Source: a virus
Virus record (IMG/VR): IMGVR_UViG_3300037847_002626
Coordinates: 1-20,656 of that record
Length of the DNA stretch: 20,656 nt
Reading direction: 5' to 3' (one strand)
Position numbers and translations under genes: made by a program. Positions 2,381-20,656 of this stretch are shown here, piece after piece. The stretch's first letter is position 1; the number at the start of each line of letters is the position of its first letter. The notes under the pieces are model-generated. The model saw only the letters and a program-made list of their open reading frames with translations, ran no database searches and was not told the DNA's origin.

Positions 2381-2971
2381 ATGGCTAATTTATTTGATAG
2401 GGCTAACTATCCAACGCAAGAACCTGATGTGTTGGTTGTTGGCGATAGATGGGTGTGGCGTAGACCCGATTTAGTTGCTGACTATCCAACAGCAGATTAC
2501 GCATTAACCTATGAGTTTCATGAGGACTCTGGTGGTGGCGGCAGTCACAAGTTCACTATTACAGCGACAGAAACCACAACTGATTATTTAGTTGAGATAG
2601 CTAGTGCTACTACAGCAGCATATACCGCAGGTGAGTATAACTGGTATGCTTTCATTACTAGATCATCAGACAGCCAAAGAATCGCAATAGATGAAGGGCA
2701 TACTAAGCTAGAGCTGAATTTTGCTAATACAAACGCTGACAATAGAAGCCATGCTAAAAAAGTCCTAGATGCTATACAGGCGACTATTGAAGGGCGTGCA
2801 TCACAAGATCAAATGAGTTACAGCATAGCTGGGCGTTCATTATCAAGAATGTCTATTGACGATCTGTTAAAATTTAGAGATAGATACAGAGCAGAGTACA
2901 ATAGAGAGATAAAGAAATTAAGAATAAAAAACAAACAAGACACAGGTAATACAATTAAAGTAAGGTTTTAG
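2381..2971 (+). CDS. Head-tail connector, gpW-like C-terminus with extra N-terminal domain
   Basis: The gene sits between large terminase and portal, exactly where lambda has gpW, the protein that closes the portal after packaging and makes the site for tail joining. The last 70 or so residues (KKVLDAIQATIEG, then SIAGRSLSRMSIDDLLKFRDRY and a basic tail ending KVRF) look like gpW: two helices with a short beta turn. Lambda gpW is only 68 residues, whereas this protein has 196. The first 110 or so residues form a beta-rich segment (YALTYEFHED, GGGGSHKFTITATETT, AGEYNWYAFI) resembling a small immunoglobulin-like domain. A 28-base gap precedes the ATG. It contains TATAAT (2356-2361) and an AAGG, but no convincing -35. 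The gpW call rests on position plus C-terminal pattern. Confidence 0.72.
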   Translation: MANLFDRANYPTQEPDVLVVGDRWVWRRPDLVADYPTADYALTYEFHEDSGGGGSHKFTITATETTTDYLVEIASATTAAYTAGEYNWYAFITRSSDSQRIAIDEGHTKLELNFANTNADNRSHAKKVLDAIQATIEGRASQDQMSYSIAGRSLSRMSIDDLLKFRDRYRAEYNREIKKLRIKNKQDTGNTIKVRF

Positions 2972-2973
2972 AC

Positions 2974-4464
2974 ATGGCAATTTGGGACAATCTCTTTAAG
3001 CAAAGGAAAAAGCAACGAAAAATCAGGCAATATGCAGCAGCAGCTACTAAAAATATATTTTCTGATTGGACTTCACAATCCATCGCAGCAGATTCAGCTA
3101 TTAGATTTAATCTAAGAAAAATTAGAGATAGGTGTCGTGAACAAGCTCGAAACAACGATTATGTCAAAAGATATTTACAATTATTAGAAACTAATGTTGT
3201 TGGTCAAAATGGTATAAGGATGCAATCCAAAGCCAGAAATGACGATAACAACTTAGACTTTTTAGGCAATGCTCAAATAGAAAGAGCATGGCGTAAGTGG
3301 GGGAAAATGGGTAACTGTACAGTCGATGGCAGGATGTCATTCCTTGATGCCCAGAAATTATTTATTAATACTCTTGCTAGAGATGGTGAAGTCTTAGTTA
3401 GGCATCACATTAGCAGAAACCCATTAGACCCTTACAAAATAGAGTTTTTAGATGCTGATTACTTAGACGAAGAAGAAAACAAAATAATGAATAATGGTGA
3501 TGAAGTCATCATGGGTGTTAAAGTTGATAAATACAGAAAACCCAAATCATATTTCCTATTTAAAGAACATCCGCACAACACTTTGCTTGGTAAGTCAGAT
3601 AGGAGACATCAAGAAATAAAAGCTAGTGAATTAATTCACGCCTATGTATCTGACAGACCACAACAAACTAGAGGTGTGCCATTTTTAACTACAGCTTTAA
3701 CAAGGCTTAAAATGCTTGATGGGTATGAAGAAGCAGAATTGGTAGCAGCACGAGTAGCAGCTTCTAAGATGGGTTTCTTTACCAGCCCAGCAGGTGATTC
3801 TTACACAGGTGAAGATACTGAGGATGACTACACACCAATTATGAACGCTGAAGCTGGCACTTTTGAACAGTTACCAGATGGTATGTCATTTCAAACCTTT
3901 GACCCACAACACCCAACATCAGGTTTTGAAACTTTCCATAAGGGTGTGTTAAGAGGTATAGCTTCTGGTTTAGGTGTTTCTTATGTGTCATTAGCAAATA
4001 ATTTAGAAGGTGTAAATTACTCTTCTATTAGACAAGGCACATTAGAAGAAAGAGACCATTACAGAATGTTGCAGAACTTTATGATTGATCATTTTATAAG
4101 ACCTGTCTTTGAGAAGTGGTTATTAATGACTATGAGCTATCAAAATAACTTCCCAATACCTGATTCAAGGTTTGATAAATTTGCTGAAAATGCAATCTTT
4201 GTGCCTAGATCATGGGGTTGGATTGACCCTGTTAAAGAAGTAAGAGCTAATGTAGAAGGCTTACAAGCAGGCGTTATCACTATGCAAGATATACAGTCAA
4301 ACTATGGAAGGGATGTTGAAGAACTATTTGAACAACATCAAAGAGAAGATGGTTTAGCAGAAAACTATGGTGTCAAAACTGCTTACCAACCATTCGGTGC
4401 TAACAAAGCACCAGTTGAGCCAGACATAACAGATGAGGAGAGCAATGATGTCGAAGGGGAGTAA
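2974..4464 (+). CDS. Portal protein, lambda gpB family
   Basis: The portal is a dodecameric ring at one head vertex that nucleates prohead assembly and forms the DNA channel. This protein has 496 residues, near lambda gpB (533). Family hallmarks are RARNNDYVKRYLQLLETNVVGQNGI-type sequence near residues 54-78, the ERAWRKWGKMGNCTVDGRMS stretch, and LARDGEVLVR. The segment SGLGVSYVSLANNLEGVNYSSIRQG is also characteristic. The C-terminus is acidic (DITDEESNDVEGE). An AAGG upstream of the ATG could serve as ribosome binding site. The gene starts two bases after the gpW-like gene and its 3' end overlaps the start of a microprotein gene. The lambda-type portal contrasts with the HK97-type protease and capsid downstream. 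Confidence 0.95.
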   Translation: MAIWDNLFKQRKKQRKIRQYAAAATKNIFSDWTSQSIAADSAIRFNLRKIRDRCREQARNNDYVKRYLQLLETNVVGQNGIRMQSKARNDDNNLDFLGNAQIERAWRKWGKMGNCTVDGRMSFLDAQKLFINTLARDGEVLVRHHISRNPLDPYKIEFLDADYLDEEENKIMNNGDEVIMGVKVDKYRKPKSYFLFKEHPHNTLLGKSDRRHQEIKASELIHAYVSDRPQQTRGVPFLTTALTRLKMLDGYEEAELVAARVAASKMGFFTSPAGDSYTGEDTEDDYTPIMNAEAGTFEQLPDGMSFQTFDPQHPTSGFETFHKGVLRGIASGLGVSYVSLANNLEGVNYSSIRQGTLEERDHYRMLQNFMIDHFIRPVFEKWLLMTMSYQNNFPIPDSRFDKFAENAIFVPRSWGWIDPVKEVRANVEGLQAGVITMQDIQSNYGRDVEELFEQHQREDGLAENYGVKTAYQPFGANKAPVEPDITDEESNDVEGE

Positions 4465-4555
4465 ACAACGACCTAGAGATGTAAAGCAAGAACAGTTTGA
4501 TAAAAACTGGGATGCAATATTTAAAAACAAAAAGAAGAAAAATGGCAAGTTATAA
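4448..4555 (+). CDS. Conserved phage microprotein (MSKGSKQRP type)
   Basis: This is a 35-residue, strongly basic protein beginning MSKGSKQRPRDVKQEQF and continuing DKNWDAIFKNKKKK. I recognise the MSKGSKQRP...F...(W/F)D.IF...K pattern from small proteins of many phages; its function is unknown to me. GAGGAG at 4435-4440 is a good Shine-Dalgarno, with 7-base spacing to the ATG at 4448. An in-frame ATG directly before it (4445) is only 4 bases away, so 4448 is preferred. The gene overlaps the end of the portal gene and runs 14 bases into the protease-capsid gene. The tight overlaps on both sides support a real coupled gene. Confidence 0.7.
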   Translation: MSKGSKQRPRDVKQEQFDKNWDAIFKNKKKKNGKL

Positions 4556-7286
4556 ACCAACAGCAGGCATGATCGCTGAAGCAAAGAAAGGATTAGCATG
4601 GCGTAGAGAACATGGTCGTGGCGGTACTTCTGTTGGTATTTCACGAGCAAGAGATATAGTCAATGGTAAAAGTCTTTCTGAATCAACAGTAAAAAGAATG
4701 TTTTCATTTTTCTCAAGACACGAAGTAGATAAAAAAGCAGAAGGCTTTAGACCAGCAGAGAAGGGCTATCCTTCAAATGGTCGTATTGCTTGGGCTTTAT
4801 GGGGTGGTGATGCAGGCTTTAGCTGGTCAAGAAAAATCACCAATCAATTAAAGAACGAAGATGAAAGGGCAAAAGAAACCAGAGACCCTATTTCTGGTGC
4901 TATGCGTAAAGCCTTAGAAAACAAAGCCAAAGATCATAATGAAAAACATGGTGGCGATAAACGCAAGAAAACCAATGTTAGAACATTATCAGCAGTGTTT
5001 AGGCGTGGCGTTGGTGCATATAAAACCAATCCACAAAGCGTAAGACCCACAGTTAATTCACCTGAACAATGGGCGTTAGCTAGGGTTAATTCATTTTTAT
5101 ATTGTTTAAGAAATCTTAAATTCAGATCAGGTAAGCATGATACCGACTTGTTACCATCAGCACACCCTTTATCTTCTAAGAGAAATGATGGTAGAATAGC
5201 AAATATGGACAATGCAGAAAGACATATCAAAGATGTCAGAGAAACAGAAGATTCCTACATAGTTGAATTTGGTAAATCAATGCCAGAAGAAGATGACATG
5301 GAAGAAAACTCTTATCAAGATGAAGAAGAAAAAGCTCACTATGATGAAGAGAAAAGAAGTGCTGACATAGACGAAGAAATCTCTGAAGAAGAACCTTCTG
5401 AAGAAGATATTGATGAAATAGCTGAAGATGAGTATGTTGCTGAAGAAAGCAATGAGGATGTCTTGAGATTTTACGCAGAAGAAAACCTACAAAGAGCATT
5501 TGAGTTCGACAGAACAAAAATTGATGAAGAAAACAGAACAATTATGATTGGTGTATCTTCTGAAGAACCAGTAGAAAGAAGATTTGGTATGGAAGTATTG
5601 GGTCATAGTGAAGGTGAGATTGACATGAAGTTCATGGCAAGCGGTAGAAGTCCACTATTATTAGACCATGATGCTACCAAACAAATCGGTGTAGTCGAAG
5701 AGTTTGGTCTTGATCACGCCAACAAAAGAACAATCGCTAAAGTAAGATTTAGTAAAAACAAACAAGCCGATGAAGTATTCAGAGATGTTGTAGATGGCAT
5801 AAGACAAAATATTTCAGTTGGTTACGAAGTCAAGAGTATGCGAAAAGAAGATGACAAAGATGGTGATGTCAGCACTTATCGAGTCGATTCTTGGAGTCCC
5901 CTTGAAGTTTCAGCAGTCTCAATACCAGCCGACCAGTCAAGGTTAGTTGGTTTTGCAAGGTCTAAAGAAACAACTTTAATTAATAATCCGAAGGAGGATA
6001 AAACTATGTCAGAAAATGTTGACAATAAAGTTGAAGTTTCTTCTGATGCAATGAGAGCAGATATAGCAAAAGAAAATGCAGCTATCATCGATCTTGCTGT
6101 TAAACATGGCAAGAGAGACCTAGCAGAAAACGCAATTTCACAAGGTATGTCTCTGCCACAATTCAGAGGACATCTTCTCGATACTATCGCTAATGATAAA
6201 CCATTGGATTTACCATCCGATGTAGAAATGAATGTAACAGAGCAAAGAGATTACAGCTTACTAAAAGCTATCAGAGAAAGTGCTGAAGGCAAACTAAGTG
6301 GTCTTGAAAGAGAGGTTTCAGATGAAATCGCTTCAAGAACTGGTAAGCAAGCTAGAGGTTTCTATATGCCAACTAATATCGCATTTAGAGCAGATCAAGT
6401 AGTCGGTACAAATAATGTCGGTGGTTTCTTAAAACCTACAGACCATATGGGTAACGAGTTCATTGAAGCACTAAAAGCAAAATTAGTCGTTTCACAGGCA
6501 GGAGCTAGAATAATGACTGGACTGAAAGGTGATGTCGCTATTCCAAAAATGTCTGCTGAGACAAGCAATGTAGCTTTTGTTTCTGAAAACTCTGCACCTT
6601 CAGAAGGTAACGCAACTTTCGCACAAGTTACCATGAGTCCAAAGACTTTGGCTGCACAAGTTGATATATCAAGAAAGCTAATGCTGCAATCTGATCCATC
6701 AATAGAATCAGTTCTTAGACAGGACATCATCGCAACTTTCGCAAGAAAGATTGACGAAGTAGCTATCGAAGGTGGCGGTTCAAATGAGCCAAGTGGTGTA
6801 CTAGCTGGTGTTGCTTCTGGTAATGTTATTGCTGCTGCAACAAATGGTGCTGCACCAACATACGAGAATGTTGTAGAAATGATTAGATTAGTAGAAGCGT
6901 CAAATGCAATACTAAACGAAGGTTCACTAAAATTCTTAGGTAATCCAAAACTTACTTCAAAGTTAAGAAGAGTGCTTAAGTCAAGTGCTGATACATCATC
7001 AAACTTCATTCTTGAAAATGATAATTCAATCTTAGGTTATGATTACCTATCAAGCACATTAGTGCCAAGTGATCTAACAGCAGGTTCAGGAAGTGGTCTT
7101 TCAGCAATGATATTTGGTGACTTTTCACAACTTATGCTTGGATTCTATAGCGGAGTTGACGTAATCGTTGATCCGTATACAGGTTCAGCAGCAGGTACAA
7201 CAAGACTTGCATTTTTCCAAGACTTAGATGTAGCTTTAAGACATGGTGAATCTTTCTCATGTAAGAAAGATTTAATCACAACTTAA
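4542..7286 (+). CDS. Fusion: two unassigned domains, acidic linker, HK97-type prohead protease and major capsid protein
   Basis: This is one open frame of 914 residues, with no stop between protease and capsid. Residues 1-100 hold a phage-associated domain of unknown role (STVKRMFSFFSRHEVDK, then GYPSNGRIAWALWGGD). Residues 115-215 hold a second one (VFRRGVGAYKTNPQSVRPT, QWALARVNSFLYCLR). Residues 249-306 are an acidic tract with 32 Asp/Glu in 58. Residues 320-480 are a U35-type prohead protease, with LLLDHD (H376) and ISVGY (S425) as likely catalytic positions. Residues 489-914 are an HK97-fold major capsid protein. In HK97-like heads the protease sits inside the prohead and cleaves the capsid N-terminal delta region. 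The ATG at 4542 is chosen over a TTG at 4497 because the recognisable domain starts there. The upstream ribosome site is weak (AAGAAG), while a strong internal one lies at 5991. Protease-capsid fusions are known in other phages; the roles of the two N-terminal domains are not. Confidence 0.9.
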   Translation: MASYKPTAGMIAEAKKGLAWRREHGRGGTSVGISRARDIVNGKSLSESTVKRMFSFFSRHEVDKKAEGFRPAEKGYPSNGRIAWALWGGDAGFSWSRKITNQLKNEDERAKETRDPISGAMRKALENKAKDHNEKHGGDKRKKTNVRTLSAVFRRGVGAYKTNPQSVRPTVNSPEQWALARVNSFLYCLRNLKFRSGKHDTDLLPSAHPLSSKRNDGRIANMDNAERHIKDVRETEDSYIVEFGKSMPEEDDMEENSYQDEEEKAHYDEEKRSADIDEEISEEEPSEEDIDEIAEDEYVAEESNEDVLRFYAEENLQRAFEFDRTKIDEENRTIMIGVSSEEPVERRFGMEVLGHSEGEIDMKFMASGRSPLLLDHDATKQIGVVEEFGLDHANKRTIAKVRFSKNKQADEVFRDVVDGIRQNISVGYEVKSMRKEDDKDGDVSTYRVDSWSPLEVSAVSIPADQSRLVGFARSKETTLINNPKEDKTMSENVDNKVEVSSDAMRADIAKENAAIIDLAVKHGKRDLAENAISQGMSLPQFRGHLLDTIANDKPLDLPSDVEMNVTEQRDYSLLKAIRESAEGKLSGLEREVSDEIASRTGKQARGFYMPTNIAFRADQVVGTNNVGGFLKPTDHMGNEFIEALKAKLVVSQAGARIMTGLKGDVAIPKMSAETSNVAFVSENSAPSEGNATFAQVTMSPKTLAAQVDISRKLMLQSDPSIESVLRQDIIATFARKIDEVAIEGGGSNEPSGVLAGVASGNVIAAATNGAAPTYENVVEMIRLVEASNAILNEGSLKFLGNPKLTSKLRRVLKSSADTSSNFILENDNSILGYDYLSSTLVPSDLTAGSGSGLSAMIFGDFSQLMLGFYSGVDVIVDPYTGSAAGTTRLAFFQDLDVALRHGESFSCKKDLITT
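5991..6008 (+). promoter_or_regulatory. Strong internal Shine-Dalgarno and in-frame ATG
   Basis: AAGGAGG (5991-5997) lies 8 bases before an ATG (6006) that is in frame with the protease-capsid frame. It falls exactly at the junction between the last protease residues and the first capsid residues (MSENVDNK). It is the best ribosome binding site in the window. It predicts separate high-level production of the capsid protein from within the fusion frame. Confidence 0.85.
6006..7286 (+). CDS. Major capsid protein, HK97 fold (internal start of the fusion frame)
   Basis: This is the 426-residue product expected from the internal start; HK97 gp5 has 385. Residues 1-115 form a charged, probably helical segment comparable to the delta scaffold domain. 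The HK97 fold follows, with GFYMPTNIAFRA, VGTNNVGGFLKPTDH, the segment AIPKMSAETSNVAFVSE, and VTMSPKTLAAQVDISRKLM. Near the C-terminus are FGDFSQLMLGFYSGVDVIVD and TTRLAFFQDLDVALRH. A plausible protease cut lies near GKQARGFY (about residue 116 here, 604 in the fusion), leaving a shell protein of about 310 residues. The capsid fold is certain. Whether free capsid, the fusion or both are made is inferred from the ribosome site. Confidence 0.9.
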   Translation: MSENVDNKVEVSSDAMRADIAKENAAIIDLAVKHGKRDLAENAISQGMSLPQFRGHLLDTIANDKPLDLPSDVEMNVTEQRDYSLLKAIRESAEGKLSGLEREVSDEIASRTGKQARGFYMPTNIAFRADQVVGTNNVGGFLKPTDHMGNEFIEALKAKLVVSQAGARIMTGLKGDVAIPKMSAETSNVAFVSENSAPSEGNATFAQVTMSPKTLAAQVDISRKLMLQSDPSIESVLRQDIIATFARKIDEVAIEGGGSNEPSGVLAGVASGNVIAAATNGAAPTYENVVEMIRLVEASNAILNEGSLKFLGNPKLTSKLRRVLKSSADTSSNFILENDNSILGYDYLSSTLVPSDLTAGSGSGLSAMIFGDFSQLMLGFYSGVDVIVDPYTGSAAGTTRLAFFQDLDVALRHGESFSCKKDLITT

Positions 7287-7307: not shown

Positions 7308-7332
7308 GGGCTACTTCGGTAGCCCTTTTTTT
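7308..7332 (+). terminator. Intrinsic terminator with C(UUCG)G loop after the capsid gene
   Basis: GGGCTAC (7308-7314), TTCG and GTAGCCC (7319-7325) form a perfect 7-base stem closed by the very stable C(UUCG)G tetraloop, followed by seven T (7326-7332). It begins 21 bases after the capsid stop. It probably reduces transcription into the tail genes or sets the 3' end of an abundant capsid mRNA. Confidence 0.92.
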
Positions 7333-13571: not shown

Positions 13572-16500
13572 ATGTTAAAAGATATAATTAAAGCAGCCTT
13601 GACAGTAGCAGCCATATCGACTGGTATGGGTGCTTTAACTGGTTCAGTTACATCTCAATTTGGTAAATACTTTTTAAAACAGTTTGCTGTATACGCTGGT
13701 TTAATTGGTCTCAATGCTATCACTGCCAAAGGTGCAAACAATACTAGCGGTAAGAATTTAGGCATCAAACAGGCTGGTCTCAATTCCATAGCACCTAGAA
13801 ACATTGTTTATGGTAAAAACAGAGTAGGCGGTACTATTGTCTATCGTTCTGTGTCTGGCAATAGCAACACAAAATTACACAATGTCATAGCTCTAGCTGG
13901 ACATGAAATCAATGACCTAAAAAAACTATATATTGATGGTGGTAAAGGCTTGGTCGAGTTAGACCTGTCATCAGACTTTACCACTGCAACAGAAAATGGT
14001 GAAACAGTTTATCGTGTGACCAACACTGCGTTCACTAATACCGACAATCCAGAAGCGTACACTGGCGGTAGCTTAATTAAACTCACATTCGAAAAAGGCG
14101 ATCAAACCACATCTAATGGTTATGCTGTTAATCAGATCGGTGCTAATTGGACAACTGATCATAAATTAAAGGGCATAGCTTATGTTTACATAAATTGTAT
14201 CTACGATGCTGAGAAGTTCGCATCTTATCCTAACTTTAGTTTTGAAGTTGAAGGTAAAAAGGTTTATGACCCAGTAACCACAACTACTGCGTACTCAACA
14301 AACCCCGCTTTAATCATTAGAGACTATCTTATGGATTCGACTTATGGCTTTGGAGCTATAAGTGATGAGATTAATGACGCTACCACTGGTGCTGGATTTG
14401 TCAAAGCCAGAAGCGATTGTAATGACAGTGTGACTATCACTGGCGGAACAGAAAGTCGCTACACACTTAATGGTCAATTCGATTCTACCGAAGAACCACA
14501 GCAGGTCTTACAACATATGTTATCAGCTTGTGCTGGTCAATTATTGTACAACAATGGTAAGTTCTCATTGTTTGTTGGTAAGGAAAGAACTGCGTCTGGC
14601 ACAATCACCGATGATAAATTATTAGCACCTATCAGCATTACTACTAAAGCGTCAGGTCAAGATTTGGCTAATGGTGTTAAAGCAACCTATGTCAGACCAA
14701 GTGATAGATATATTGCTGGTGAAATCACTCCTTATCAAGACAGCACTTATCTCAGCGAAGATACTCCGTCAGGACAACAATCAGCCGACTATGAAAACTA
14801 TATGGACTTGTCATTCCCATACACACAATCGACCTTTACTGCACAACGCTTGGCACGTATCGCATTAGATTACCAAAGACAAGATCAGACCTTAACTGCT
14901 ATCGTGCCATTAGAATTTATGACGCACCAAGTCGGTGACATCATTAATTTTACAAACGATAGACTGGGTTATAGCGGTAAAGATTTTGAAATAGTAGCGA
15001 TGGGCTTTGAGTTTGTCGGTGATAGCTATTTGGCGTTACGCCTTAATTTAAAAGAATACGCTGGTTCTGTTTTCAACAACATTACTTATGTCGCTGACCC
15101 AACCTTACCATCTGCTCCGAGTGTAGGTGATAACACTGTTGGCACACCGACTGGTTTGACCTTAACTGAAAGCAGTAAAAGCACTACCGCTAAAGAAATC
15201 TATATTAAAGCGTCTTGGACTAACGATGACGATGATAAAATTGTCGCAACCGAAGTAGCATTTAAGAAATCAACTGATTCTGAATTTTCTTCTAACTATA
15301 CTAGTTACCCACGCACAACATTTACCTTTAGAGCAGAGTCATCAACCACTTATAATTTTAAAGTCAGACATATATCAAATACTGGTGTTGCTGGTGACTA
15401 TACAAGTGTGGTCAACATCACTACATCAGCCGATGTCGGCACATTTACAAGCGGTACGATTGCTGGCATCACTGTTGCCACAGATAAGTTGTACGAAGGC
15501 ACAGGCACATTTAACAATAGCAACACTGGTTTCTATTTAGATAACACAGGACAATTCTCACTCAAAGACAAATTATCTTTTGATGGCACAACCCTAAACA
15601 TCTCAGGTAACTTGACAGTTGAGAACACCATCACAGCAGATAAGATTGTCGTTGATGGCATTAATTTAGACAACTTAATTAGTGCTACTACGCAGTCTGG
15701 CTCAATTTACTTGACAGAGTTTACTGGCATCAAGATTGCTACAGCAGGGGCAACCAATGGCTATCCAGCTTTGTTAAGGATGCAAGACGATCAAGGTACT
15801 AACTGCTTTACCGACATCACGCAATCACAGACTGGTATCAACATTAGAGCCAGAGCTAACACAGCACAAGGCACAATCAGATTTCAAGGCATAGGGTCAG
15901 GCATAACACCTGTTAACTATGGTGGCTTTGATGCGTCAGGCAATTTTGAGATTGGGACAACTGATGTCATACAAGCAGGAACTAGAAACCTAGTTAATGT
16001 CGGCACTATCACAAGTGGCTTCATTTCAGCAAGTACAAGTGATGCTTCATCAGTGCCATTATCAATCGGTAGTGGTTCAAGCACAAATTACACCCTACAA
16101 AGATGGATAACATCTGCACATTCAGGAACATCTGCATACATGATTGCTTATGGAGCAAGTCATTCTTCACAAGCAAATCATTTTGCTATGAAAAATGTAA
16201 AAAGTGGTGGCGAAATATTCTTTGAATTGTTTGGTGTTGAACCTCTGAGATTGACCAGTACGGGTGCAACTTTCGCAGGCACTATCAGTAGTGGAGCTAT
16301 TACAAGCACAGGTACAAGTAGTTTTGCAGGTGGCTTAGATGTAGGTACTTTTACATCAACAGGCACTACTACTTTAAATTTAAAAGCAGAAGCACAACAT
16401 GATACTAAATTAGGATTTTTTGAAGATAATGCTAATTATGGTTTTAGTTTTAATTATGATGGTGGTACAAATCAGTTTATATTAAAAAGACATGATAACT

Positions 16501-19500
16501 CTGCGAGTGGTGCTAGTGTTTTAACTTTTACTAGGACAGATAATAATGCCACCTTTGCAGGTAATGTCGTAGTCTCAGGCGATCTGACAGTCAATGGCAC
16601 AACCACCACACTGAACACTGCCACCCTAGATGTAGAAGATAAAAACATCACCCTTAATTACTCCACAGGTGACAGCTCAAGTTCGGCTAATGGAGCAGGT
16701 ATCACCATTCAAGATGCTGTTAATTCAACTACTGATGCGACTATTTTGTGGAACACATCTGATGACAGATTTGATTTTTCAAATCATATTGGCTTGCCTG
16801 ATGATAAAAGAATAAAACTTGGTGATAGTAACGACTTACAAATATTTCATAATTCCTCAAACAATCATTCCGTTATAGCTGAATCAGGTTCAGGGGATTT
16901 AAGACTAAGTGCAGATGATCTTTATATCAAAAATGCGTCTGCTACTGAAAACAAAGCTGTATTTCTATCTGATGGAGCAGTAAAACTCTATTACGATAAT
17001 GCAGAAAAAATTAAAACGACTGCAACAGGGATAGATGTAACTGGTGTAGCAGTTGTTGATGGCTTAACATCTTCAGCTTTAGCGACAGTAGATGAACTAA
17101 GTGTCACTAACGATGCAACCTTCAATGGTAGTATTGATGTTGGTGGTGGCACTATTGATTGTGGCACTATTACCTCTTTAGGAAATATTGATGTCAATTC
17201 AGATTCAGGACAGCTTCAGTTTGGTGCAGATAATGATATGCAGATGTTTCATAATGGGGCAAAAGGTGAAATCAATATTGCTACTGGTAACTTTGATATT
17301 GATTCAGCAGGTGAAATAACTCTAGATGCAGATACTAGTGGGGTAATAAGGTTAAAAGATGGTGGTACAGAATATGGCAAGATTTCACAAAACTCTAACA
17401 ACTTAAGAATATTCAGCAGTATTTCTAATGGCGATATACTGCTTCAGGGTAATGATGGTGGCTCAACCATTACAGCACTTACTCTTGATATGTCAGCAGG
17501 TGGTAAGGCAACTTTTAATAGTGATCTTGTTGTACCTAATGCCTTTGTACAGAATTTATTTATAACAAGTAGTGGGACATCTACTGTAAACAGGCTAGAT
17601 AATGATGGTAACACTTTTTATCTCACACATGGTGATGGCTCAAGCAGAGCTTTAGAAATACACAACACAACTGGTAATGTTTCTATATCTAGTGGAAGCA
17701 CTTTCCAGATAGCAGGTGTAAATGTTATAGATACAAGCAGAAACCTAGTAAATATCGGCACTATCAGTAGTGGGGTTATTACAACAACAAATGTAATGGC
17801 ATCATCTCCTTACCATCACCATTTTGATGTTTCTGGCACTAATGTAGTAGGTGGGGGTGCTGGTATTGTTCTTCAGACTTCAGCAAGTGCAGGTACAACA
17901 GGGTTATATGGAGCAAAAATACAAGCAGTCAGAACTGCAAGTAATGATGGTAGTGCAGATTTAGAGTTTTACACTAGTGATGCAGACACAGCTTCAGGTG
18001 CACATCAGTTAGCTCTCACACTTGATGAAAACCAAAATGCCACCTTTGCAGGAAGAGTTAGTCTTGGTGAAGAATTAAGAATGACAGGGAGTGGCACTAT
18101 AAGATCAAACAATACTTTAGGATTTGTAACAGTGGGTGGTTCTGCACAATTTGGTAAATTTAAAGGTGTAGCTGCACAAACTTCTTATGGAAATGGAGTA
18201 AGTACAGGTATGTTTAATGCCTTAAATGGATATGCAGTTGGTACTGGTGTTGGCACAACTGTAATAGACAGCTCAAGAAACCTAACCAATATCGGGACTA
18301 TCAGTAGTGGTGCGATTACAGGTTCTTCCTCTATTACAGCTCTTGGAACAGGAGATTTAAGCAATTCTTTAGCTTTTCAATCTGGTAGTTCTACAAACAT
18401 TTGGAAAAACATTTCAATAAGAAGATACTTGCAACAATCTCATGCAGATGCTTTAAGTGATGGCACTCATTTATTTACAGCTAGTCCAAATGGCTCTCCT
18501 ACAGATGATGCATTTGTTTATGGTGCATTTATTATTCAATGTAGAGATAACTCAAATACTGGATTTGCAGTAAGAATAGGTAGTGGCTCTAATGTCGGAA
18601 CTGCTTTTAGAATCAATGGTTCAAAAAATGCGTTTTTTACTGGCACTATCAGTAGTGGGGCTATTACTGCAAAAAGTGGTAGCACAACAACACAAAGCAC
18701 TTTTAGTAATTTCATATCCAATAATACAGTTGTAAAAGCTGTCGTTAATCATGCTAATGAATATGGCTTATATATGGGGTATGTAAATGCTACAACCGAT
18801 ACTAATGCGATACAGTCTGGTAGGGCTAATGGTACAACAGATGAACTAGCATTAAACCCTTATGGTGGCAACGTAGGTATCGGAACTACTTCTCCTAACC
18901 AAAAATTAGTTGTTGTTGATACTGGTGGAGAAACAACAGTCGCAATTGATAATGCTACAACTACAACTGGTAATCATTCCAGATTAGATTTTAGACACAA
19001 CGGCATTACTGGCTCACAAATTAAATCAGAAAATATTGAGGATTTTACATCCTCTGCTAATAGAACATCAGACTTACAATTCTATACTAGAAACAATGGC
19101 ACAATAGCTGAGAGACTTAGGATCAAAGAAGATGGCAAGGTCGGTATAGGAACTACTTCGCCCTCTGAAAAGCTTCATGTAAAAACTACAAGCAATACAG
19201 TTGCAAAATTTGAAACTTCATTAACATCTGATTTAGCAATAGAACTAGCTAACTCAGAAGGTAGTATGTTTTTTGGTTTAGGTGGTGGTGAAGAATTTGC
19301 AGTAGGTACAGATTCAAATTTAAACGGAAGCAATAGTCTATTTGTAATAAAACAAGATGGTAGGGTAGGTATCAATACAATCGCACCATCAGAAACCCTA
19401 GATGTTGTTGGTACTGCTGAATTTATTTTAAATAATCAATCTAATGGTGTCAGAATCCGACAGACTGATAGTACACCAGGGCAAAACATGAACTCTCTGT

Positions 19501-20656
19501 ATATAGATCACGACTGTTCTGGTTCTGATACTTTCTCTGGTGATTTTGTCCACAGAGGCATATATGTAGATATGGATTCATCGGCAACAGGGGGTGACAC
19601 TTCTGAAGAACACAGGGTGTATGCAGGTGAGTTTGATGCTAGAGCAACAGGTGACAGTGATTTAGTCAAAGGTATTAGGGCTTATGCTGAATCCCAACAC
19701 TCATCAGGCACTATTTCAGGCTTGTATGGTGTTGAGGGTATTGCAATAGCTGATGAAACAGGTTCAGCAAGAACAACGACAGCTTATGGTGTCTCTGGCT
19801 TGGTTCAGTATCAAGGGACTGGTACAGGTGGCACAACGCAAGCCTATGGGGTCTATGGTAAGGTCTTACATTCAACAGCCAGTGATAAGAGTAATGTTGG
19901 ACAATCATCAGGGGTTTATGCAGAAATTGAAATTGACGACCCCGGTCAAAGTCAAACCTTAACTAACACACAAAGAGTTATTTATTCTATCTTTGACAAT
20001 GATAGTGGTGGTAATGTAGATATAAGTGGCAGAGTGTCTTTGGTAGAGGGGACATGGCAAGGTACTTTACCAACCAATGCCTATAATCTGTACTTTGGAA
20101 TAGATGTGCCATCATATATAGAAGGTTCTCTTGGGATTGGCACTGCATCTGCAGATAGTTTTTGGTCACAAGCAAACTCAATAGTTTTAGATGATGGGGG
20201 CAATACTGGTCTAACCATCAGGTCTACTTCAACAGGTAATGGTAGAGTTGTCTTTACCGATACTGCCAGTACGACAGCAGGTCTTAATGATGGTGGACAA
20301 ATTCATTATGGTCATTCTGCTGACGATATGCGATTCAGAACTGCTGGTGCTGATAGGGTAACTATTAATGCAACTGGTGTTGGTATCGGAACTACTTCGC
20401 CAAGCTACAAACTCTCAGTAGTCAACTCAGGCAACGTAGCATCATTTGGTGATGGTACTAGAGCATTTAGAGTATTTACAGATTCAGATGAAGTAAGTTT
20501 ACTTGCAGATGGTTCTGTAGATATGAAGTTCTATACTTCTGGTGCAGAGAAAATGAGGATTGATACCTCTGGTCGTGTCGGTATAGGAACTACTTCGCCA
20601 AGTGATAAATTAACTGTTAATGGTAACTTAAGTATATTTGGCAACAAGATATATAA
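13572..20656 (+). CDS. Giant gpJ-like tail tip protein fused to modular fibre (partial, 3' end beyond window)
   Basis: I read this frame through to the right edge without a stop: 2361 codons, over a third of the window. Residues 8-50 are hydrophobic (ALTVAAISTGMGALTGSV). Residues 70-520 resemble the tip attachment protein J of lambda (NPALIIRDYLMDSTYGFGAI, GQFDSTEEPQQVLQHMLSAC, DLANGVKATYVRPSDRYIAG). Residues 526-618 look like a fibronectin type III domain. From about 620 a fibre begins (TGFYLDNTGQFSLKDKL, ITADKIVVDG). Beyond 799 it consists of cassettes joined by GTISSGAIT-type linkers, marine-phage fibre blocks (LTVNGTTTTLN at 1005, LGDSNDLQIFH at 1083), a likely beta-solenoid (about 1975-2178) and VGIGTTSP repeats (1768-2336). 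Lambda gpJ has 1132 residues and a separate side fibre; here tip and fibre are one chain. It should bind the host receptor and begin DNA injection. The missing C-terminus probably carries the receptor-binding end. Confidence 0.9.
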   Translation, partial: MLKDIIKAALTVAAISTGMGALTGSVTSQFGKYFLKQFAVYAGLIGLNAITAKGANNTSGKNLGIKQAGLNSIAPRNIVYGKNRVGGTIVYRSVSGNSNTKLHNVIALAGHEINDLKKLYIDGGKGLVELDLSSDFTTATENGETVYRVTNTAFTNTDNPEAYTGGSLIKLTFEKGDQTTSNGYAVNQIGANWTTDHKLKGIAYVYINCIYDAEKFASYPNFSFEVEGKKVYDPVTTTTAYSTNPALIIRDYLMDSTYGFGAISDEINDATTGAGFVKARSDCNDSVTITGGTESRYTLNGQFDSTEEPQQVLQHMLSACAGQLLYNNGKFSLFVGKERTASGTITDDKLLAPISITTKASGQDLANGVKATYVRPSDRYIAGEITPYQDSTYLSEDTPSGQQSADYENYMDLSFPYTQSTFTAQRLARIALDYQRQDQTLTAIVPLEFMTHQVGDIINFTNDRLGYSGKDFEIVAMGFEFVGDSYLALRLNLKEYAGSVFNNITYVADPTLPSAPSVGDNTVGTPTGLTLTESSKSTTAKEIYIKASWTNDDDDKIVATEVAFKKSTDSEFSSNYTSYPRTTFTFRAESSTTYNFKVRHISNTGVAGDYTSVVNITTSADVGTFTSGTIAGITVATDKLYEGTGTFNNSNTGFYLDNTGQFSLKDKLSFDGTTLNISGNLTVENTITADKIVVDGINLDNLISATTQSGSIYLTEFTGIKIATAGATNGYPALLRMQDDQGTNCFTDITQSQTGINIRARANTAQGTIRFQGIGSGITPVNYGGFDASGNFEIGTTDVIQAGTRNLVNVGTITSGFISASTSDASSVPLSIGSGSSTNYTLQRWITSAHSGTSAYMIAYGASHSSQANHFAMKNVKSGGEIFFELFGVEPLRLTSTGATFAGTISSGAITSTGTSSFAGGLDVGTFTSTGTTTLNLKAEAQHDTKLGFFEDNANYGFSFNYDGGTNQFILKRHDNSASGASVLTFTRTDNNATFAGNVVVSGDLTVNGTTTTLNTATLDVEDKNITLNYSTGDSSSSANGAGITIQDAVNSTTDATILWNTSDDRFDFSNHIGLPDDKRIKLGDSNDLQIFHNSSNNHSVIAESGSGDLRLSADDLYIKNASATENKAVFLSDGAVKLYYDNAEKIKTTATGIDVTGVAVVDGLTSSALATVDELSVTNDATFNGSIDVGGGTIDCGTITSLGNIDVNSDSGQLQFGADNDMQMFHNGAKGEINIATGNFDIDSAGEITLDADTSGVIRLKDGGTEYGKISQNSNNLRIFSSISNGDILLQGNDGGSTITALTLDMSAGGKATFNSDLVVPNAFVQNLFITSSGTSTVNRLDNDGNTFYLTHGDGSSRALEIHNTTGNVSISSGSTFQIAGVNVIDTSRNLVNIGTISSGVITTTNVMASSPYHHHFDVSGTNVVGGGAGIVLQTSASAGTTGLYGAKIQAVRTASNDGSADLEFYTSDADTASGAHQLALTLDENQNATFAGRVSLGEELRMTGSGTIRSNNTLGFVTVGGSAQFGKFKGVAAQTSYGNGVSTGMFNALNGYAVGTGVGTTVIDSSRNLTNIGTISSGAITGSSSITALGTGDLSNSLAFQSGSSTNIWKNISIRRYLQQSHADALSDGTHLFTASPNGSPTDDAFVYGAFIIQCRDNSNTGFAVRIGSGSNVGTAFRINGSKNAFFTGTISSGAITAKSGSTTTQSTFSNFISNNTVVKAVVNHANEYGLYMGYVNATTDTNAIQSGRANGTTDELALNPYGGNVGIGTTSPNQKLVVVDTGGETTVAIDNATTTTGNHSRLDFRHNGITGSQIKSENIEDFTSSANRTSDLQFYTRNNGTIAERLRIKEDGKVGIGTTSPSEKLHVKTTSNTVAKFETSLTSDLAIELANSEGSMFFGLGGGEEFAVGTDSNLNGSNSLFVIKQDGRVGINTIAPSETLDVVGTAEFILNNQSNGVRIRQTDSTPGQNMNSLYIDHDCSGSDTFSGDFVHRGIYVDMDSSATGGDTSEEHRVYAGEFDARATGDSDLVKGIRAYAESQHSSGTISGLYGVEGIAIADETGSARTTTAYGVSGLVQYQGTGTGGTTQAYGVYGKVLHSTASDKSNVGQSSGVYAEIEIDDPGQSQTLTNTQRVIYSIFDNDSGGNVDISGRVSLVEGTWQGTLPTNAYNLYFGIDVPSYIEGSLGIGTASADSFWSQANSIVLDDGGNTGLTIRSTSTGNGRVVFTDTASTTAGLNDGGQIHYGHSADDMRFRTAGADRVTINATGVGIGTTSPSYKLSVVNSGNVASFGDGTRAFRVFTDSDEVSLLADGSVDMKFYTSGAEKMRIDTSGRVGIGTTSPSDKLTVNGNLSIFGNKIY
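15966..18668 (+). repeat. Five GTISSGAIT-type linkers separating fibre cassettes
   Basis: A short motif recurs inside the giant fibre: residues 799 (15966, VIQAGTRNLVNVGTITSG), 903 (16278, GTISSGAIT), 1385 (17724, VIDTSRNLVNIGTISSG), 1564 (18261, VIDSSRNLTNIGTISSG) and 1691 (18642, GTISSGAIT). Between copies lie unrelated beta-rich segments. A second shared string encodes NATFAG at 16545 and 18036 with 17 identical bases. These look like conserved joints at which fibre domains are exchanged. Confidence 0.8.
18873..20600 (+). repeat. VGIGTTSP fibre repeats
   Basis: Good copies begin at 18873, 19140, 20379 and 20577. Degenerate copies lie at 19365 (VGINTIAP) and 20130 (LGIGTASA). Each is followed by S/N-x-K-L-x-V and preceded by an R(L/M)RI-type or similar strand. 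Spacing is 66-89 residues, except for the 255-residue gap that holds the beta-solenoid. In known proteins such repeats often lie upstream of a C-terminal intramolecular chaperone (peptidase S74) domain. Confidence 0.85.
19494..20105 (+). repeat. Degenerate ~20-residue repeats, probable beta-solenoid in the fibre
   Basis: Repeats of the form [G/S/R]-[V/I/L]-Y/x-[G/A/V]-x-[hydrophobic]-x start at 19494, 19557, 19614, 19671, 19728, 19788, 19848, 19911 and 19977, and more weakly at 20028 and 20085. Successive spacing is 21, 19, 19, 19, 20, 20, 21, 22, 17 and 19 residues. Clearest are YGVEG, YGVSG and YGVYG exactly 20 residues apart. One stacked rung per repeat is the likely fold. Confidence 0.65.

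Follow-up and report, generated by a model that had tools for sequence, protein, structure and literature searches.

In phage HK97, the gp4 protease and the gp5 capsid protein are encoded by two separate genes. The gene described here shares with gp4/gp5 the protease family, the delta-domain strategy, and the capsid fold, but not the separation of the genes. In lambda C/Nu3 and Mu I/Z, a long protease-containing product and a short product of an internal start have a common C terminus. Our gene resembles these pairs in its nested in-frame start and shared C terminus; however, in these pairs the scaffold is what the short frame encodes, and the capsid protein has a gene of its own.

Fusions of prohead protease and capsid in one frame are already catalogued (NF045540, NF045541, and PHROG 617/4523), and an earlier sequence-only reading of this DNA also called them known. 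NF045541 (scaf_prot_MCP2) and the PHROG fusions show the same order of S78 protease, delta domain, and HK97 capsid but differ from our gene, which has an extra N-terminal region of ~310 aa. The names of the catalogued families imply one product. Gifsy-2 (NF045540), whose tripartite capsid gene was reportedly treated by Effantin et al. in 2010, likewise joins protease, scaffold, and capsid in a single frame; its ClpP-like protease is unrelated to S78. In the open-access literature searched, we found no account of protease-capsid genes with a nested start; the 2010 work lay outside it and may mention one. The fusion itself is thus known, whereas its conserved nested start was not found described.

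The best structural and sequence match of our capsid is that of the marine roseophage R4C, which also has a fusion frame with a seam site but is without the extra N-terminal domains. The R4C gene vBDshSR4C_006 is a 629-aa frame with cggaggacgcaATG (GGAGG + ATG) at codon 189, and the shell chain (PDB 8gta) comprises the C-terminal ~268 aa, which align to our fusion protein from residue ~627. The virion has been described with 415 MCP copies, in an article whose main text mentions no protease (PMC10276861).

Layout of the fusion gene

The window, a virus record of 20,656 bases, carries head and tail genes of a tailed phage: small and large terminase, head-tail joining, lambda-type portal, the fusion gene, head closure, holin, tail terminator, and tape measure. 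Among phage records, the terminase was nearest to those of Roseobacter phages CRP-8xx/406 (~48% identity). A very long ORF (13572–20654, 2361 aa) lies downstream of the tail genes and runs off the window end.

The claim of the sequence-only reading that the protease runs into the capsid protein without a stop was borne out: a single plus-strand frame is open from 4485 to its TAA end at 7286, and the Pfam and PHROG 617 domains lie in it. The 914- and 426-residue species that it predicted correspond to the frames from ATG 4542 and ATG 6006. It had passed over the N-terminal region and the 36-aa ORF (Table 1).

Table 1 Features of the fusion gene and its surroundings in the window.
Feature	Position	Strand	Remark
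36-aa ORF MMSKGSKQRPRDVKQEQFDKNWDAIFKNKKKKNGKL (MSKGSKQRP...), between portal and fusion gene	4445..4555	+	Overlaps fusion start by 14 nt
Fusion gene, 914 aa: N-terminal region, S78 prohead protease, delta domain, HK97-fold capsid	4542..7286	+	
N-terminal region, residues 1–309: helical domains and disordered low-confidence tail	4542..5470	+	
S78 prohead protease domain	5475..5966	+	Invariant His376 (5667), Ser425 (5814), Glu455 (5904)
Disordered interdomain linker, residues 461–500, housing the internal start	5922..6041	+	pLDDT <50
Internal Shine-Dalgarno (SD) AAGGAGG	5991..5997	+	
Nested reading frame (426 aa) for the predicted delta-capsid precursor, opened by internal ATG 6006	6006..7286	+	
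Delta (scaffold-like) domain	6006..6419	+	Predicted removal by protease; boundary placed from PDB 8gta
Mature HK97-fold capsid region, ~288 aa	6420..7283	+	
Intrinsic-terminator-like hairpin GGGCTACTTCGGTAGCCC and T run directly 3' of capsid stop	7308..7332	+	Read from sequence

PHROG 617 (protease + major head protein) matched residues 312–907 over profile positions 5–620 of 626 (E 2e-116). Within the same frame, Pfam placed S78 protease PF04586 at residues 370–466 (24.5 bits; gathering threshold 21) and capsid PF05065 at 628–905 (E 2.8e-33). The TIGR01554 score of 109.7 against a cutoff of 27.5 assigns the latter to the HK97-type capsids. The fusion model NF045541 reached 145 of the required 525 bits despite the same architecture, and TIGR01543 gave the protease just 26.6 against a cutoff of 59. 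His376, Ser425, and Glu455 were invariant across 23 homologues. By the Pfam match and the conserved His and Ser, the domain is classed as an S78 (HK97-type) prohead protease with predicted activity on delta domains.

In the AlphaFold2 model of the fusion protein (mean pLDDT 67, 23 sequences), the N-terminal domains are helical, confidence is low at ~214–324, and the protease at ~325–460 is followed by a low-confidence linker at 461–500. Delta helices, another low-confidence stretch at 616–638, and the capsid come next. Its best PDB match by Foldseek was the R4C capsid 8gta (E 3.1e-16); 1ohg gave E 1.2e-10. The HK97 entries 3qpr and 8fqk were also among the Foldseek matches. For the mature capsid, the R4C structure suggests ~288 aa from residue ~627 instead of the ~310 residues expected earlier.

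The N-terminal region matches phrog_2859 at residues 9–113 and, weakly, DUF5824 at 101–188. In many marine phages, a phrog_2859-bearing region of ~310 aa is joined to the protease. Many Salinibacter and Vibrio phage records were matched by the whole-fusion query and not by the protease-capsid query, presumably via the N-terminal domain. Roseobacter phage CRP-823 is annotated, unlike its close relatives, with two overlapping frames, the N-terminal domain (2486–3202) and the protease-capsid part (3162–5414); this may be a frameshift, a sequencing error, or a natural split.

At the fusion start, ATG 4542, the anti-SD pairing is −0.9 kcal/mol, in line with the weak upstream ribosome site described in the sequence-only reading. 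The 36-aa ORF, which has only a very weak phrog_3723 match (E 0.24), has an SD of −8.2/−9.4, among the strongest of the window. Since ATG 4542 sits in the tail of this strong-SD ORF, translational coupling may feed the fusion start, which we regard as possible. The weakness did not extend to the family: the median of the best possible upstream SD was −6.2 against −6.3 for the internal SD, the upstream value being biased towards strength because it was picked as the best over every possible start. A generally weak upstream start was therefore rejected, as both starts have similar SD strength across the family.

The internal start and its conservation

At the seam, AAGGAGG and, after an 8-nt spacer, the in-frame ATG 6006 lie as the earlier reading had placed them, at the domain junction; the internal Met is residue 489, within the disordered linker of the AlphaFold2 model. 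The calculated anti-SD pairing there is −11.7 kcal/mol, the strongest among the 491 plus-strand ATGs, against a generic anti-SD ACCUCCUUA that may differ from that of the host. The window's own 60 nt around ATG 6006 fold at −9.1 kcal/mol, and a hairpin begins at the start codon. The frame and the site are kept in an 89% identical contig (L002) and in a 99% identical partial contig (L003), and among the homologues collected none was found with a stop at the seam; therefore, the fusion frame is not a sequencing error.

From 5800 to 6210, over the seam and delta domain, the window and L002 are 97–99% identical, synonymous sites included. Elsewhere, identity is 91–94% upstream and ~61–79% from about 6210. 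Either recombination or constraint would explain the near-identical stretch.

In a first sample, drawn from viral contigs and one genome per bacterial species, protease and capsid were in one frame at all loci (178/178). We then used 90 representatives of <65% identity and fixed the test window to the protease profile (5–35 codons past its end), with windows in the same genes as controls. An ATG was present in 84 of the 90 seam windows and in 53% of the control windows, and an ATG with an SD of −4 or better in 74 of 90 and 11.8%, respectively (p=2e-50). The median SD was −6.25 at the chosen seam ATG, whereas the remaining in-frame ATGs had −2.2; because the seam median takes the best ATG in the linker, the window test is the fairer comparison. 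A second sample was picked for its resemblance to the protease of another phage and was hence blind to fusion. Here 75 of 80 loci were fused, four are truncated by the end of their contig, and in one the frame changes inside the capsid, not at the seam. Of 43 representatives independent of those in the first sample, 33 had ATG and SD at the seam in a window of 5–45 codons; controls reached 16.5% (p=3e-17). Comparison of homologues, the kind of check suggested at the outset, favoured the internal site, and no homologue in either sample had its two domains separated by a stop at the seam. Sequencing error or a lost stop was rejected, given one frame at 178/178 first-sample and 75/80 protease-selected loci. 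The seam start persists among fusions of <35% identity, and the SD is absent from the seam ATG in ~18–23% of representatives, some of them cyanophage-like. As judged from these counts, the pairing of ATG and SD at the seam is not chance.

A seam site is also present in a Helicobacter prophage. In Gifsy-2, gaggagtttgagcatATG (SD + ATG) lies at codon 221, the end of the ClpP-type protease domain, and is kept in relatives; the SD evidence is weaker there because the seam residues EEF..MP are also conserved. In Stenotrophomonas S1, an S78 protease precedes a capsid matching the Gifsy-2-type model, with AGGAG and ATG-Pro-Gln at the seam. By sequence comparison, the capsids of S1 and Gifsy-2 are related and their proteases, S78 and ClpP-like, are not, the proteases being swapped at the seam. 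Where the genes are separate, the capsid ATG of phi39:1 overlaps the stop codon of the protease gene, a position equivalent to the seam start, and the capsid of FP_Epona starts at the equivalent place. When the unfused protease of phi39:1 served as query, its own phage was the only match.

Alternative readings and a probable dual-start head gene

The first alternative is that the full fusion alone is made, protease and delta are trimmed from every copy, and the SD-like motif only reflects a conserved, disordered K-E-rich linker or a cleavage site. The mature capsid would be the same either way: all that precedes residue ~627 is predicted to be cut away by the protease, so mature virions, including structures such as 8gta, cannot reveal the start used. 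The linkers are A/G-rich, and 57 of 71 SDs were in the AAG-GAG codon phase (10 and 4 in the other two). Since the SD mostly falls in a K-E codon pair, amino acids explain part of the signal. We redrew every linker codon synonymously from the codon usage of its own gene. The mean best SD expected after recoding the whole linker was −4.6 against −6.6 observed (p=3e-11); gene by gene, however, the median p was just 0.28–0.29, and ~16% of genes were individually significant. Pure amino-acid constraint is thus partly true and insufficient, and other codon phases occur, as in CRP-821 (AGG AGT) and VP882 (AGA GGT). The surroundings are also start-like. By position, the profile is that of a canonical SD, with G at −10/−9 (63/73%) and A at −11 (72%), a spacer mode of 8 nt, and S, P, E, T, or D after Met in ~84%. 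On average, the seam is weakly structured (mean percentile 0.92; 0.85 GC-matched).

Packing also speaks against fusion-only synthesis. At 110 Da per residue and 1.21 Å3/Da, residues 1–626 occupy ~83,000 Å3, or 3.5e7 Å3 for 415 copies. An HK97-like prohead has an inner radius of ~200 Å and a cavity of ~3e7 Å3. By this rough estimate, 415 copies of the 914-aa fusion would overfill a T=7 prohead, as their N-terminal parts take up about the whole cavity; therefore, an all-fusion T=7 prohead is implausible here. Ordinary 620-aa fusions would fill about half of the cavity, so the argument is weaker for them. Taken together, we consider exclusive synthesis of the fusion unlikely.

Two further readings are very improbable. 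The motif could be a programmed pause for folding of the protease before capsid synthesis, with an incidental ATG, and its position exactly at the domain boundary would suit this; however, a pause requires no in-frame ATG, which the a-priori seam windows carry more often than controls, with the SD at its usual distance and residues typical of starts behind the Met. That the seam start is an unused relic of an ancestral capsid gene whose intervening stop was lost would agree with the capsid starts of the separate-gene relatives, but an unused relic would not persist in fusions of <35% identity and beyond the synonymous expectation.

We consider it likely that nested in-frame starts yield a free delta-capsid of 426 aa together with a fusion by which protease enters the shell. 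Ribosomes at ATG 6006 would make the delta-capsid precursor, and ribosomes at ATG 4542, perhaps through coupling with the 36-aa ORF, the full fusion. The capsid half of the fusion would co-assemble in the prohead lattice and bring the protease inside, which would then cut off the delta domains and itself at flexible seams and leave the ~288-aa mature capsid. A scarce fusion that takes the protease into the prohead is plausible. As in lambda C/Nu3, a conserved internal start with its own ribosome-binding site lies at a domain boundary and shares frame and stop with the long product, and both products are predicted. Of the ratio control by nested starts put forward in the sequence-only reading, the nested starts are strongly supported by conservation beyond amino acids, whereas weakness of the fusion start is not a general feature of the family.

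Meaning for phage head genes

The seam start, conserved in most of the ~130 distant fused genes sampled, probably lets the phage make plain shell protein besides the protease-tagged form. Phage heads contain hundreds of capsid subunits, and HK97 has far fewer proteases. A stop-less fusion gene looks one-to-one, and a conserved second start would resolve this without frameshift or read-through. We lean towards the wider view that tailed-phage genes for protease-capsid fusions as a class, whichever of the two unrelated proteases they carry, keep a seam start that sets the protease dose of the shell, and that the 'major capsid protein' annotated with 600–1000 aa in numerous phages and prophages is a minor product. 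If this is true, capsid annotations would need correction in many phage and prophage genomes, and capsid lengths derived from ORFs would mislead predictions of size and mass; the R4C entry gives a capsid of 629 aa, against ~268 aa in the shell chain. The seam start would also mark the point at which unrelated proteases are exchanged before the same capsid, as in Gifsy-2 and S1.
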